In this document: positions 13,539 to 19,160 of the stretch, one piece after another
How the letters are laid out: the number at the start of each line of letters is the position of its first letter
How positions within the stretch are numbered: the first letter of the stretch is position 1
Source of the DNA: Chloroflexota bacterium
GTDB lineage: Bacteria; Chloroflexota; Anaerolineae; Ardenticatenales; JAADHH01
DNA length: 40,612 bases
NCBI GenBank assembly: GCA_013151955.1
Contig: JAADHH010000082.1
Span: forward strand, 1 to 40,612
Direction of reading: 5' to 3'
The notes under the pieces: model-generated
Told to the model about the DNA's origin: nothing
Seen by the model: only the letters and a program-made list of their open reading frames with translations
The model's database searches: none
Translations under genes and position numbers: made by a program

Positions 13539-15614
13539 GTGCCACGACTGTTTCTCGAAGGCCCGCCTGGCAGCGGTAAACACGCCCGCCTGGCAGAACA
13601 CATCCAGCAACTGCTGCAGGCCGGTACGGATGCCTACAGCCTGCTCGTTCTCGTACCGGACCGGTCCATACGTGACCGCCTGCAACACACGCTTTCGGCT
13701 GCCTTGCGCGGCCAGCACCGGATGCCGGACTTGCACACGTACTACAGCCTGGCCCAGGGGATGATCACGCGGTTCTGGCCGATTATTGCCGGGCCGGCCG
13801 GATTCACAGAATCATCCTTGCCGCCGACGTTTCTCACCTACGAAACAGCCCAGCATCTGATGAGCCGCATCGTCACCCCCTTGCTCGAACAAGGGTACTT
13901 CGAGGGACTCTCTATCCGCCGCCAACGCCTCCTCTCGCAATTGCTGGACAACCTGAACAAAGCGGCCATCAACGGCTATGCGCACACAGAGATCGGCCAC
14001 CGCCTGGGAGCGGCCTGGGCCGGCGATGAGACCCGCCGGCAAGCCTACCTTCAAGCGCAAATCTGCGCCGACCGTTTCCGCCGGCATTGCCTGGAACGAA
14101 ACCTCCTCGACATTTCCCTGACGATTGCCCTCTTTCATCGCCATCTGGTCGAAGATGCCATCTTTTGGCAATACTTTACAGGACGGTACCGGCACTTGGT
14201 CGTGGCCCATCTCGAAGAAAGTGTCCCCGTCGCCCAGGACTTGATCCGCCGCCTGATTCCATTCACGGAAAGCACACTGCTCACCTACGAGACGGGCGGG
14301 GGCTACCGCGTTTTCATGGGCATTGACCCAACCGGCGCGAAACAACTGGCCGACCTCTGCGCAGACCAAGAATCGCTGCCTGCACCGCCCGACACCAATC
14401 CCAACATAGTCGCCCTGGACCTGGCGCTGGGCCAACGCCTGGGCCAGGTGCCAAAAGGCCCCCTGCCCGGCGACCCGCAGGCCGCGCTGGATCAGCACAT
14501 CATCCAAAAACGGTATCGTAGCGAAATGATCGAAGCCGTCGCCCAGGAGATCGGCCGCCTGGTGCGCGACGAGGGTGTCTCCCCAGACGAAATAGCCGTC
14601 GTAGCGCCCTATGCCGATGGCGTGTTGCGCTTTGTGCTCCGCGAGAGTTTCCAGCGTGCCGGCGTGCCCTTTCGTGTGATCCGGCGCTTCGAGAGTCTGC
14701 GCGAAGACCCGGTCGTCCGGGCCTGCCTGACGGCCGCGGTGCTGGCCCATCCGGCATGGCCGACCCCCTGCCCGCCACCCGATGTGGCCGAGGCATTGAC
14801 GCTGATTGTGGCCGGCTTGGATTTTGTGCGGGCGACGCGCCTGGCCGGCGCGCTGTATGCCCCCGAGGAGCGTCATCTCCAGCCCGCAGAAACGCTATCC
14901 GCCGCCGACCGCGAGAAAATTGGCGCCGACGCCTTGGACTGCTACGAAGTTTTGCGAGAATGGCTGGAGACGTTTCGCTCCGCCGAGAACACCATTCCGA
15001 TAGACCTTTTCTTCCAACAGTTCTACGCCGAAATCCTGGAGCGTTCCGGATTTGGCGCAGCCGATGATGCCGGCTATGCTCCCTCGGTGACCCGTCTGAT
15101 CGAATCGGCACGGCGGTTTCGCGAGGTGGCTCCCTCCCTCGGCGAACAGGATGCAGACATCGGCGCAGCGTACTGGCAGATGGTCTATAGCGGCGTGGTA
15201 GCGGCCCAATACCTGCTGGACGAAGCGTACGGCACAACCGGCAGCGAGGCGGTGACACTCGTCGCCCCGGTCTACACCTATCTGCTGGCCGGCCGCCGCG
15301 TGCGCTATCAGTTTTGGCTCGATGTCGGGGCGATTGGCTGGTGGGAACCACCGTACCAGCCCCTGACCAACCCCTATGTCCTCTCCCGAAACTGGCCGGC
15401 AGGCGACAGGTGGACCGACGACTTCGATTTCCACATCCGCAACGAGACGTTGTATCGTCTGGTGCATGGTCTCTGTGCGCGTTGCCGCAATGCCCTCTAT
15501 CTGTGCAGCAGCGACCTGGAAACAGGCGGCAACTTGCAAGACAGTCCGCTCCTGCGTGCAGCCCTATCGGTAGCCAACCACCAAAGGATTCGTGATGATC
15601 ACGCTGCGCACTGA
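13539..15614 (+). CDS. Degenerate UvrD/AddB-like superfamily 1 helicase homolog (pseudo-helicase)
   Basis: Walker A remnant GPPGSGKHAR. Motif II position reads LVVAHLEESVPVAQDLI. Motif VI-like RLVHGLCARCRNALYLCSSD. 2A-like VSPDEIAVVAPYADGVLRFVLRESFQRAGVPFRVI. GTG start 3 bp after the previous stop. Confidence 0.75.
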   Translation: MPRLFLEGPPGSGKHARLAEHIQQLLQAGTDAYSLLVLVPDRSIRDRLQHTLSAALRGQHRMPDLHTYYSLAQGMITRFWPIIAGPAGFTESSLPPTFLTYETAQHLMSRIVTPLLEQGYFEGLSIRRQRLLSQLLDNLNKAAINGYAHTEIGHRLGAAWAGDETRRQAYLQAQICADRFRRHCLERNLLDISLTIALFHRHLVEDAIFWQYFTGRYRHLVVAHLEESVPVAQDLIRRLIPFTESTLLTYETGGGYRVFMGIDPTGAKQLADLCADQESLPAPPDTNPNIVALDLALGQRLGQVPKGPLPGDPQAALDQHIIQKRYRSEMIEAVAQEIGRLVRDEGVSPDEIAVVAPYADGVLRFVLRESFQRAGVPFRVIRRFESLREDPVVRACLTAAVLAHPAWPTPCPPPDVAEALTLIVAGLDFVRATRLAGALYAPEERHLQPAETLSAADREKIGADALDCYEVLREWLETFRSAENTIPIDLFFQQFYAEILERSGFGAADDAGYAPSVTRLIESARRFREVAPSLGEQDADIGAAYWQMVYSGVVAAQYLLDEAYGTTGSEAVTLVAPVYTYLLAGRRVRYQFWLDVGAIGWWEPPYQPLTNPYVLSRNWPAGDRWTDDFDFHIRNETLYRLVHGLCARCRNALYLCSSDLETGGNLQDSPLLRAALSVANHQRIRDDHAAH

Positions 15615-17823
15615 CCAACAAGGGGTCGTGGACTACACCGGCGGGTATATGGCCGTTTCCGCAGTGCCGGGCAGCGGCAAAACGACGACGCTGGCCCTCC
15701 TGGCCGCACGCCTCATTGCCGAAGCGCTGCCCGAAGATGGGTACGTGCTGGTCGTCACCTACCAAAACGCCGCCGTGGAAAACTTTCGCGCCAAAATCGC
15801 GCGCTTTCTGGCCGAAGACGACCTGCCGCAAACCGGTTACGAAGTACGCACCCTACACAGCCTGGCGTACCAGATCGTGCAACAGAACCCGGGCCTGGCC
15901 GGCACAACCCCCGGCTTCAATGTACTGGACGAGCGACAGGCTACCCACCACCTGGAAAATGGGGTCAATGCCTGGCTGAACGAGCACCGCGACACCTGGG
16001 AATCGCTCCGCCCGGACGATTGGTCCGTGGAGGGCTGGCGCCGCCGCTGGAACTACACCAGTCTGGAAACGGCAAAGCTGATCATTCAGACGGCCAAGAA
16101 TCACCGGGCCTCGCCCGCCGGCATCAGCAGCAGGCTGCTCCCCACGTCCGGTAGCCCCCATTTCGGCGACATCTTTTTGCAGATGGCCCTGGAAGTGTAC
16201 CGCTTCTACCAACAACAAATGGCAACGCTGGGTGAGCTCGATTTCGATGACTTGATCCGCCTGGCCGTAGATGTGTTGGTCGAACACAGCGACTACCGTG
16301 ACCGCTTGCGCCGGCGATGGCCCTACATCCTGGAGGACGAAGCCCAAGACAGTGTGCCCCTTCAACAGGAATTGCTCTCCCTCCTGGCCGGCCCCACCGG
16401 CAACTGGGTGCGCGTTGGTGATCCCAACCAGGCCATTATGGGCACCTTCACGGCGGCCGATCCGCGACAATTCCGCGACTTCATCAACCGGCCAGACGTG
16501 GAGCACCGCTCGCTGCCAGTGTCGGGGCGCAGCGGCCGGCCCATTATTCGCCTGGCCAACCGGTTGGTGGATTGGGCTGTGCAGGAACACCCGGTGCCGG
16601 AGATTCGGGAGCGCGCTTTTTTGCCCTTACACATCGTGCCCACACCGCCCGGCGACCCCCAACCGAATCCACCGGACGAAGAGAGCGGCGTGGATATGCC
16701 CATTTATCGCCACGTGGACATCGAGTTGCCCACGATTGCCCAACGCGCCATTCGCCGCGCCGCAAGCCATCCCCAACAGACTCTGGCCATTCTGGCCCGC
16801 GACAACCGGACCGGTCAGAGGATTATTGATTGCCTGCGGGACATAGACGAGGATGTGGCGTATGATGATTTGTTGCGGGGCAATGTGCGCTCACGAGATG
16901 TGGCCCAGTTGCTCCACGCTGTGCTGGAAGTCCTGGTCTCGCCGCTGGCAGCGTCCGCACGGGTTGCGGCTTATTCGTCTTTGGCGGAGGAGGGGTATGG
17001 CAATCTGGGCACAGAAGAAGACCAGGCCCGTGTGGCGATCTTGTTGCGCAGTTGTCCGGCACCCGAACAGGCCATCTTTCCGGCCGCAGGAACCGATTGG
17101 CGCGATGCGTTTGCTCCGGTGCCCGGCATAACTGCCGCAGACTGGCAGGCCGCGCATACGATGGTGACGCTGCTGCAACGGGCGTTCCTGGCCCGCACAT
17201 TGCCGGTGGACGAGTTGGTCATGACCCTGTCACAGGAAATATTCGCCACCCCCGGCGATCTGGCAACCGCCCAAAAGCTGGCCGGCTACCTGCGCGCACT
17301 GGCAGAGAACAACCCCGCCTGGCGTTTGGGGGAACTGAACCAGGAGCTGGGCCTGATTGCCCGCGGACGGACGCGATTCTTGGGGCCGGAAGAGTCCTCG
17401 CAGGGGTTCACCCCCCGCCCTGGCGTCATCACCGTTTCGACCATGCACAGTGCCAAGGGCCTGGAGTGGGACACGGTGTACCTGGTAGGCATAGACGATT
17501 TCTGGTTTCCCGGGGATCTGGATGCCCAGTTCATCGGCACCTATCCCGAGTTGGGGGGCAGTCCCATGAACGAGGCCAAGGCGCGGTTGGAGGCCATCCT
17601 CGATGTGCAAAAGCGCGACAGCGACCCCGATCCAACGCGCGAGGCCAAGCTGGCCACCATCGCCGAGTCTTTGCGTCTGTTCTATGTGGCCATAACGCGT
17701 GCCCGCCACAACCTGGTGATCAGTTGGAGCCAAACGGTCACCGCGCGGGGCAACCGCGAGGCCAGCCGTTCGCTCACGCCCGCTTTGCGGGCATTGCGCG
17801 CGTTGTGGAAAAGCCACGATTGA
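15592..17823 (+). CDS. UvrD/Rep-family ATP-dependent DNA helicase
   Basis: AVPGSGKTTTLALLAARLI, FDDLI, YILEDEAQDSVPLQQELL, VGDPNQAIMGTF, ISTMHSAKGLEWDTVYLVG-like ITVSTMHSAKGLEWDTVYLVG, LRLFYVAITRARHNLVISWS. Starts inside the preceding gene. Confidence 0.95.
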   Translation: MMITLRTDQQGVVDYTGGYMAVSAVPGSGKTTTLALLAARLIAEALPEDGYVLVVTYQNAAVENFRAKIARFLAEDDLPQTGYEVRTLHSLAYQIVQQNPGLAGTTPGFNVLDERQATHHLENGVNAWLNEHRDTWESLRPDDWSVEGWRRRWNYTSLETAKLIIQTAKNHRASPAGISSRLLPTSGSPHFGDIFLQMALEVYRFYQQQMATLGELDFDDLIRLAVDVLVEHSDYRDRLRRRWPYILEDEAQDSVPLQQELLSLLAGPTGNWVRVGDPNQAIMGTFTAADPRQFRDFINRPDVEHRSLPVSGRSGRPIIRLANRLVDWAVQEHPVPEIRERAFLPLHIVPTPPGDPQPNPPDEESGVDMPIYRHVDIELPTIAQRAIRRAASHPQQTLAILARDNRTGQRIIDCLRDIDEDVAYDDLLRGNVRSRDVAQLLHAVLEVLVSPLAASARVAAYSSLAEEGYGNLGTEEDQARVAILLRSCPAPEQAIFPAAGTDWRDAFAPVPGITAADWQAAHTMVTLLQRAFLARTLPVDELVMTLSQEIFATPGDLATAQKLAGYLRALAENNPAWRLGELNQELGLIARGRTRFLGPEESSQGFTPRPGVITVSTMHSAKGLEWDTVYLVGIDDFWFPGDLDAQFIGTYPELGGSPMNEAKARLEAILDVQKRDSDPDPTREAKLATIAESLRLFYVAITRARHNLVISWSQTVTARGNREASRSLTPALRALRALWKSHD

Positions 17824-18014: not shown

Positions 18015-19160
18015 CTACGGCCTCTGCCAGGGATCGAAGAGGCGACGATATTCCTGCAAGGCGTACCGGTCGGTCATGCCGGCGATGTAATCACAGACCA
18101 CCCGGTAGAGGTTGGTTTCGTCCAACCGGTACTGTGTTTCGGTGGGCAATTGTTCCGGTTCGGCAATGTAGGCCCCGAAAAGCTCGCTCAGAAAACGCTC
18201 CGCTTTGACCGCCATGCGCACCACACGATAGTGACGATAGAGCCGGCGGTAGAGGAAACTCTTCAGGTTTTGGTTGCGTTCCTGCATTTCCGGCGAGGGC
18301 CTTACCAGCAAAGTCGGATATTCGCGCACGTCTTGCACGGACGCGATTCCGGCTCGCTGCAACTGCTCCTCGGTGTGCTGGATGAGGTCTGTGACTTCCC
18401 GGTTGATCAGGTAGCGGATGATACGGTGCCGTGTCATCTCGGAAAATGGTTCGGGGATTTGGGCCGTGGCCTCTTTCCAAAGGATGATTCCTTCCTCTTC
18501 CAAATCATCCGGGCCGATCAGGCCGGAACGCAGTCCATCATCCAAGTCATGCGTGTTGTAGGCAATCTCATCGGAAACATTGACCACTTGGGCTTCGAGC
18601 GAGGGGCGCAGCTCCGGTTCAAAGCCGCTGGCATCTGCGGCGTCGTATTCCGTTTCGTGCTTGACAATCCCCTCTCGCACCTCCCAGGTCAAATTGAGGC
18701 CCCGAAAACGGGGATAGCGACACTCCAGGTCCTGGACGATACGTAGCGTCTGCTCCGTGTGGTTGAAGCCGCCGTGGTCGCTCATCAGTTTGTGCAATGT
18801 TGCCTCGCCGGCGTGACCGAAGGGGGTGTGTCCCAGGTCGTGGACCAGGGTGGTGGCTTCCGCCAGGTCTTCGTTCAGGCGGAGCGCCCGGGCAATGGTG
18901 CGCGCGATTTGGGTCGCTTCCAGCGTGTGTGTGAGGCGCGTCCGGTAATAATCGCCTTCATAGTTGATGAAAACCTGTGTCTTGTATTCCAGGCGGCGGA
19001 AGGCCGTGGTGTGAATAATCCGGTCCCGGTCTCGTTGAAAGGGGGAACGATAGGGATGCTCTACATCTGGATGTTGGCGTCCGCGGGTTTGGCCGCTCTT
19101 GACGGCGTATGGAGCCAGCCGCTCTTCCTCGAATTGAGCCCAAGCTTCTCGATCTAACAT
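18015..19160 (-). CDS. dgt: Deoxyguanosinetriphosphate triphosphohydrolase-like protein (HD domain)
   Basis: YRSPFQRDRDRIIHTTAFRRLEYKTQVF, LVHDLGHTPFGHAGE, GGFNHTEQTLRIV, VNVSDEIAYNTHDLDDGLRSG. Confidence 0.95.
   Translation of the reverse strand: MLDREAWAQFEEERLAPYAVKSGQTRGRQHPDVEHPYRSPFQRDRDRIIHTTAFRRLEYKTQVFINYEGDYYRTRLTHTLEATQIARTIARALRLNEDLAEATTLVHDLGHTPFGHAGEATLHKLMSDHGGFNHTEQTLRIVQDLECRYPRFRGLNLTWEVREGIVKHETEYDAADASGFEPELRPSLEAQVVNVSDEIAYNTHDLDDGLRSGLIGPDDLEEEGIILWKEATAQIPEPFSEMTRHRIIRYLINREVTDLIQHTEEQLQRAGIASVQDVREYPTLLVRPSPEMQERNQNLKSFLYRRLYRHYRVVRMAVKAERFLSELFGAYIAEPEQLPTETQYRLDETNLYRVVCDYIAGMTDRYALQEYRRLFDPWQRP

Follow-up and report, generated by a model that had tools for sequence, protein, structure and literature searches.

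RecBCD comprises three polypeptides with a single nuclease, and its RecC subunit represents a dead helicase fold that is devoid of ATP-binding motifs. In AddAB, a single SF1A motor unwinds the DNA, the dead helicase domain of AddB scans for Chi, and nuclease domains cut both strands (PMC4824097). The nearest published account of the arrangement considered here is a predicted operon, found mostly in Clostridiales, which combines genes for UvrD and a Cas4-like (pfam12705) protein, and for which a repair role has been suggested (PMC5704561). Here we analyse a pair of helicase-like genes of a Chloroflexota bacterium (assembly GCA_013151955.1), situated at 13539 to 17823 of contig JAADHH010000082.1, of which the whole 40,612-nucleotide stretch analysed is referred to as the window. 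The two proteins are probably subunits of a split, three-subunit DNA-end processing enzyme of the AddAB/AdnAB/RecBCD class with a separate nuclease, considering their folds and motif states, the operon order, the co-occurrence, natural fusions of the two, and the catalytic and Fe-S residues of the separate nuclease.

The first open reading frame (ORF), at 13539..15614 of the forward strand, encodes a 691-aa AddB/RecC-like dead SF1 helicase from a GTG start, 3 nt downstream of the end of a flavin reductase gene. The second, at 15592..17823 of the same strand, encodes a 743-aa active SF1A helicase of UvrD/PcrA type, also from a GTG, with an alternative ATG 3 nt inside. The frames share 20-23 nt (15592..15614), congruent with the overlap of about 23 nt in the original prediction, which suggests translational coupling of pseudo-helicase and helicase.

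The 743-aa protein is readily recognized by the Pfam models UvrD-helicase (E=2e-42) and UvrD_C (E=1.6e-20), and stops after motif VI. The full set of canonical SF1 motifs previously assigned to it was indeed recovered, as motifs I, Ia, II, III, IV, V and VI are all invariant within its family; among these are the Walker A motif (residues 24-31, AVPGSGKT, 15661..15684), motif II (residues 249-253, DEAQD, 16336..16350), the motif V region (residues 617-640, TMHSAKGLEWDTVYLVGIDDFWFP, 17440..17511) and motif VI (residues 694-708, LRLFYVAITRARHNL, 17671..17715), all on the forward strand. The nearest relatives of the family are PcrA, Rep and UvrD, which the active subunit matches best in both sequence and fold, followed by AddA, AdnB and RecB. 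Unlike these, the active subunit belongs to a distinct family encoded together with a dead paralogue: it falls below the equivalog cut-offs for rep (134 versus 951 bits), pcrA (122 versus 911) and uvrD (96 versus 1144), as well as for AddA (addA_Gpos, 76 versus 708) and, likewise by far, for RecB, and family members reach 274-914 bits where ordinary UvrD-like proteins score about 75-100 in the same search.

The 691-aa protein is by contrast scarcely detectable by sequence, with E-values of 6e-4 for Pfam UvrD-helicase and 0.21 for ADDB_N. Its AlphaFold model (mean pLDDT 90.1) nevertheless displays a whole UvrD-type fold, as anticipated in the original prediction, and in fold comparison is matched over its entire length by UvrD, AddB, AdnA and RecB chains, with E=3e-17 towards AddB (3u44_B). 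Congruent with this, profile-profile comparison relates the pseudo-helicase and helicase families at 98% probability, and reproduces the alignment of HLEESVPVAQD with DEAQDSVPLQQ that had been made by eye.

We scored motif conservation of this subunit over 108 relatives. The degenerate Walker A motif (residues 8-16, GPPGSGKHA, 13560..13586, forward strand) carries a T to H replacement that is seen in none of the others. At the motif II equivalent (residues 222-232, VAHLEESVPVA, 14202..14234, forward strand) the catalytic DE pair is lost, being replaced across the family by N-[VIL], and is followed by an invariant EE (E226/E227, 108/108), such that the window protein reads HLEES versus the usual NVEED. 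The motif VI equivalent (residues 643-656, HGLCARCRNALYLC, 15465..15506, forward strand) retains the family-conserved G644, L645, R648 and C649, the latter two in 105/108 relatives, and G255, W593, W601 and L645 are invariant positions peculiar to the pseudo-helicases. Most relatives maintain an intact Walker A motif (GPAG-GKT), hinting at a stepwise decay from intact, through GKH rather than GKT in the window, to gone in a sister group of Latescibacterota and Gemmatimonadota (GPLVAGQR), where helicase and nuclease genes still follow. Thus, ATP binding by the pseudo-helicase appears dispensable in part of the family. With such family-specific invariant residues, and an intact Walker A motif in most relatives, the 691-aa subunit is, at the level of sequence conservation, a member of a conserved pseudoenzyme family and not a decaying gene; the earlier description as a diverged paralogue with eroded motifs holds with this one correction.

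Neither protein possesses a PD-(D/E)XK domain according to Pfam, the confident full-length models and the fold matches, in agreement with the original prediction, and a cryptic nuclease within either helicase protein was ruled out from the Pfam searches and models. No PD-(D/E)XK nuclease gene adjoins the pair within the window either; the further suggestion of a nuclease-less system is however wrong as a general statement, as most genomes have a separate nuclease gene, beside the helicase gene or at another site. Related loci were gathered using an alignment as query, since a single window protein returned none, and the families were designated A1 (nuclease), A2 (pseudo-helicase) and A3 (helicase); the window proteins score 878 and 913 bits against A2 and A3, the alignments of which include them. 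Of the loci collected first, nine carry a gene of about 280 aa beside or near the helicase gene, mostly overlapping it. Its family matches PDDEXK_1 (E 1e-24 to 1e-29), and maintains all catalytic residues, with H56, D122, D136-W-K138, Q154 and Y158 invariant, as well as a Cys quartet (C20, C234, C237 and C243) of the AddB/Cas4 type. Within the PDB, the family is most closely related to the AdnB nuclease domain and to MGME1. Judged by these residues, the third gene is a predicted Fe-S PD-(D/E)XK nuclease of AddB/AdnB/Cas4 type.

The three genes are tightly associated. In all 48 three-gene loci found among 80 loci, the genes run on one strand from pseudo-helicase through helicase to nuclease, with a RecJ gene next in 31 of them, and where the nuclease gene is not adjacent, it was detected elsewhere in 11/11 genomes tested (L104 served as an additional positive control). 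Among 249 genomes of the class of the window organism, the pseudo-helicase is found in 142, the helicase in 144 and the nuclease in 135; the pair, the conservation of which had been raised as a question, is present in 137/249, and all three genes in 122/249 with four weak nuclease matches discounted. The odds ratios for co-occurrence are 140-390, although the genomes are related, so that P-values overstate independence. The neighbourhoods consist of housekeeping genes rather than a defence island. In the locus closest to the window protein by tree path (L103:7959-16253), the pseudo-helicase is without adjacent helicase, recJ is positioned about 4 kb downstream, and helicase and nuclease genes are found elsewhere in the genome.

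Cyanobacteriota provide a complementary view of how the parts relate. The pseudo-helicase family is present in 167/194 genomes sampled. In those of 3-8 Mb, the pseudo-helicase is about 700 aa and mostly encoded apart from the other genes, the helicase family reaches 274-515 bits (as against the roughly 75-100 that ordinary UvrD attains there), and one genome contains a complete unfused operon (L293). In the small, AT-rich genomes of 1.6-2.3 Mb and 30-35% GC, the two are instead joined into a fusion of about 1290 aa (L241:2640-7143, L242:7389-11948 and L276-L292), with the pseudo-helicase half spanning about 3-620 and the helicase half about 635-1275. Directly downstream, a PD-(D/E)XK nuclease gene of about 210 aa, scoring near the Cas4 cut-off, overlaps or abuts the fusion gene in 19/19 loci examined. 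The cyanobacterial nuclease was found at least in G522, G546 and the fused loci. As the order of the fusion is that of the operon, the fusion together with the adjoining nuclease gene constitutes strong genomic evidence that the parts act together, as components of one predicted complex.

How does this assembly compare with the established enzymes? As in AddAB, an active SF1A motor is combined with a dead SF1-fold subunit retaining few catalytic motifs (PMC4824097), and an Fe-S type PD-(D/E)XK nuclease belongs to both systems. AddA and AddB however each carry a nuclease domain, whereas both helicase subunits are about 700 aa here and the nuclease is encoded apart. AdnAB similarly has two SF1A subunits, and AdnA and AdnB rank high among the fold matches, but both AdnAB subunits possess motor and nuclease domains, while no fused nuclease is present here. 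As fused nuclease domains were tested for and not found, the system falls outside AddAB and AdnAB as defined. Separately, a pair of the AdnAB type, with 1055 and 1021 aa and both proteins matching PDDEXK_1, occurs in another Chloroflexota family (L061:1081-7307, also L062 and L064), and is well suited as an outgroup to the split system. The three polypeptides, the one nuclease per complex and the dead helicase-fold subunit resemble RecBCD, where the nuclease is however fused to RecB instead of forming a third polypeptide; no RecD-like second motor was detected among the conserved neighbours, to which the search for RecD was confined. The Clostridiales operon shares the unfused UvrD helicase beside a PD-(D/E)XK nuclease, but no dead-helicase subunit is described for it (PMC5704561), a comparison made by description and not by homology. 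Aggregated, the folds, motif states and conserved pairing support the AddAB-like architecture of the original prediction, in which a dead-helicase subunit is coupled to an active one.

For the three-gene system, we infer complex formation, polarity, strand cut, a role in break repair and Chi-like regulation. By analogy with AddAB, the 743-aa protein would act as a 3'-to-5' motor that pulls the 3'-ended strand. The second half of the complex would be contributed by the 691-aa protein, which, in the manner of AddB and RecC, most likely holds, guides and perhaps reads the unwound strand, possibly forming a channel or scanner. The Fe-S PD-(D/E)XK nuclease of about 280 aa would then join the helicase complex as a third protein and cut, RecJ, often encoded next, would aid degradation of the 5' strand, and RecA would ultimately receive a 3' overhang.

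Certain observations weigh against such a three-part enzyme. On sequence alone, the pseudo-helicase is nearer UvrD/PcrA than AddB. Several genomes bearing all three genes also possess full-length helicase-nuclease pairs of about 1000-1200 aa, so other end-processing systems accompany the three-gene system in some genomes, and the idea that members of the class carry either this system or full-length AddAB/AdnAB, but never both, was rejected on the same grounds. A further objection concerns the nuclease. In the genome of the window, profile A1 finds nothing at E<=10; the assembly is 86.5% complete, hence a true absence is not established, and the gene is either in the missing ~14% or lost. The sole PF12705 match in this genome is a short Cas4-like gene (L001). 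Moreover, five genomes of one Chloroflexota genus (G152, G402, G420, G484 and G502; loci L057, L246 and L247) keep the pair without nuclease. These are 95-99% complete, two of them being assembled in one and five contigs, and sister genera carry readily detected nuclease genes, so that the nuclease seems to be genuinely lost in this genus.

The Cas4-like gene (L001:523-1311, contig C2) is apparently split, with two overlapping ORFs that each contain a hydrophobic stretch, and adjoins a gene resembling dnaN. Short PF12705 matches of similar size are present in most genomes of the class searched. Because solo-Cas4 has been reported in many Chloroflexi (PMC5704561), we did not count this gene as a third partner.

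The best-surviving alternative, which we nevertheless regard as unlikely, is that the window encodes a true nuclease-less two-subunit helicase as a derived state, serving in unwinding or clearing of RecA filaments while RecJ or general nucleases perform the degradation. Both window ORFs are intact, and the missing partner, here and in the five near-complete genomes, is what this explanation anticipates. Opposing it, members of the family are usually accompanied by a nuclease gene, whether behind the fusion or elsewhere in the genome (19/19 loci and 11/11 genomes, respectively), and the window assembly is incomplete. The nuclease-less helicase of the original prediction therefore does not hold as a family rule, a nuclease being usual, but is supported in one genus and is possible in the window genome.

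The origin of the locus bears on a second alternative. The window proteins have their nearest counterparts in Latescibacterota/Gemmatimonadota (48-50% and about 46% identity), and in the tree the window protein shares a clade with these (SH-aLRT 98% for the 18-row set), while the remainder of its order (six of seven genomes) yielded none of the three genes. A neighbouring phosphomannomutase is on the other hand 60-66% identical to those of many genomes of the same class, which fits the contig to its genome, and we rejected a contaminant contig for this reason. Thus, horizontal acquisition of the pair by the window lineage is likely but not proven, and the bin taxonomy of the relatives can be wrong. 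Separately, an HD-domain dGTPase-like gene (window 18015-19160, reverse strand) is convergent with the pair.

Such a history is also compatible with a decaying remnant, horizontally acquired, in which the nuclease was lost and the dead subunit is eroding. The phyla of the closest relatives and the absence of all three genes from the remainder of the order agree with this notion, as do the Walker A T to H replacement, D223A and N224H, which are unique to the window protein among the 108 relatives. We nonetheless consider it improbable, as both frames are open and full-length and the helicase keeps every motif; furthermore, the complete Walker A loss of the sister clade coexists with an intact operon and nuclease, indicating that such loss is tolerated without decay. 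An anti-phage helicase pair, Gabija-like or related, is hardly credible, as the PADLOC GajB and RTasHel models that recognize the 743-aa protein (E down to 1e-44) match any SF1A helicase and the pseudo-helicase only marginally, the genes occur in more than 50% of the class and in the majority of Cyanobacteriota sampled, in housekeeping contexts, unlike patchy defence islands, and the partner is a PDDEXK_1 nuclease that matches Cas4/DruK models and not GajA, an OLD-family nuclease. A defensive side role is possible, since AddAB/RecBCD-class enzymes also degrade phage DNA.

The pair and its nuclease thus apparently represent a widespread and undescribed three-part helicase-nuclease relative of AddAB and RecBCD. 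We found no description of the three-gene system in the literature, which is weak evidence of novelty with subscription journals mostly outside the search. Whether it amounts to an overlooked architecture of the RecBCD/AddAB/AdnAB class in several phyla, with a nuclease-less pair in some lineages, and supplies the resection enzyme for double-strand breaks that has been missing from cyanobacteria, is to us an evenly balanced question. The split system is in any case informative: the nuclease is covalently fused to helicase in AddAB, AdnAB and RecBCD, and a version with a detachable nuclease lets the purpose of the tethering be tested, for which the natural fusions of the two helicase parts are likewise useful. 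The family also forms a natural series, comparable to the contrast between AddB and RecC, which leads from a subunit able to bind ATP to one that is purely a scaffold. Finally, most cyanobacteria outside marine Prochlorococcus and Synechococcus are reported to be without RecBCD, and model strains without recB, recC or recD (PMC5101192); with the family being so common in Cyanobacteriota, the question of how broken ends are processed in these organisms becomes testable by gene deletion.

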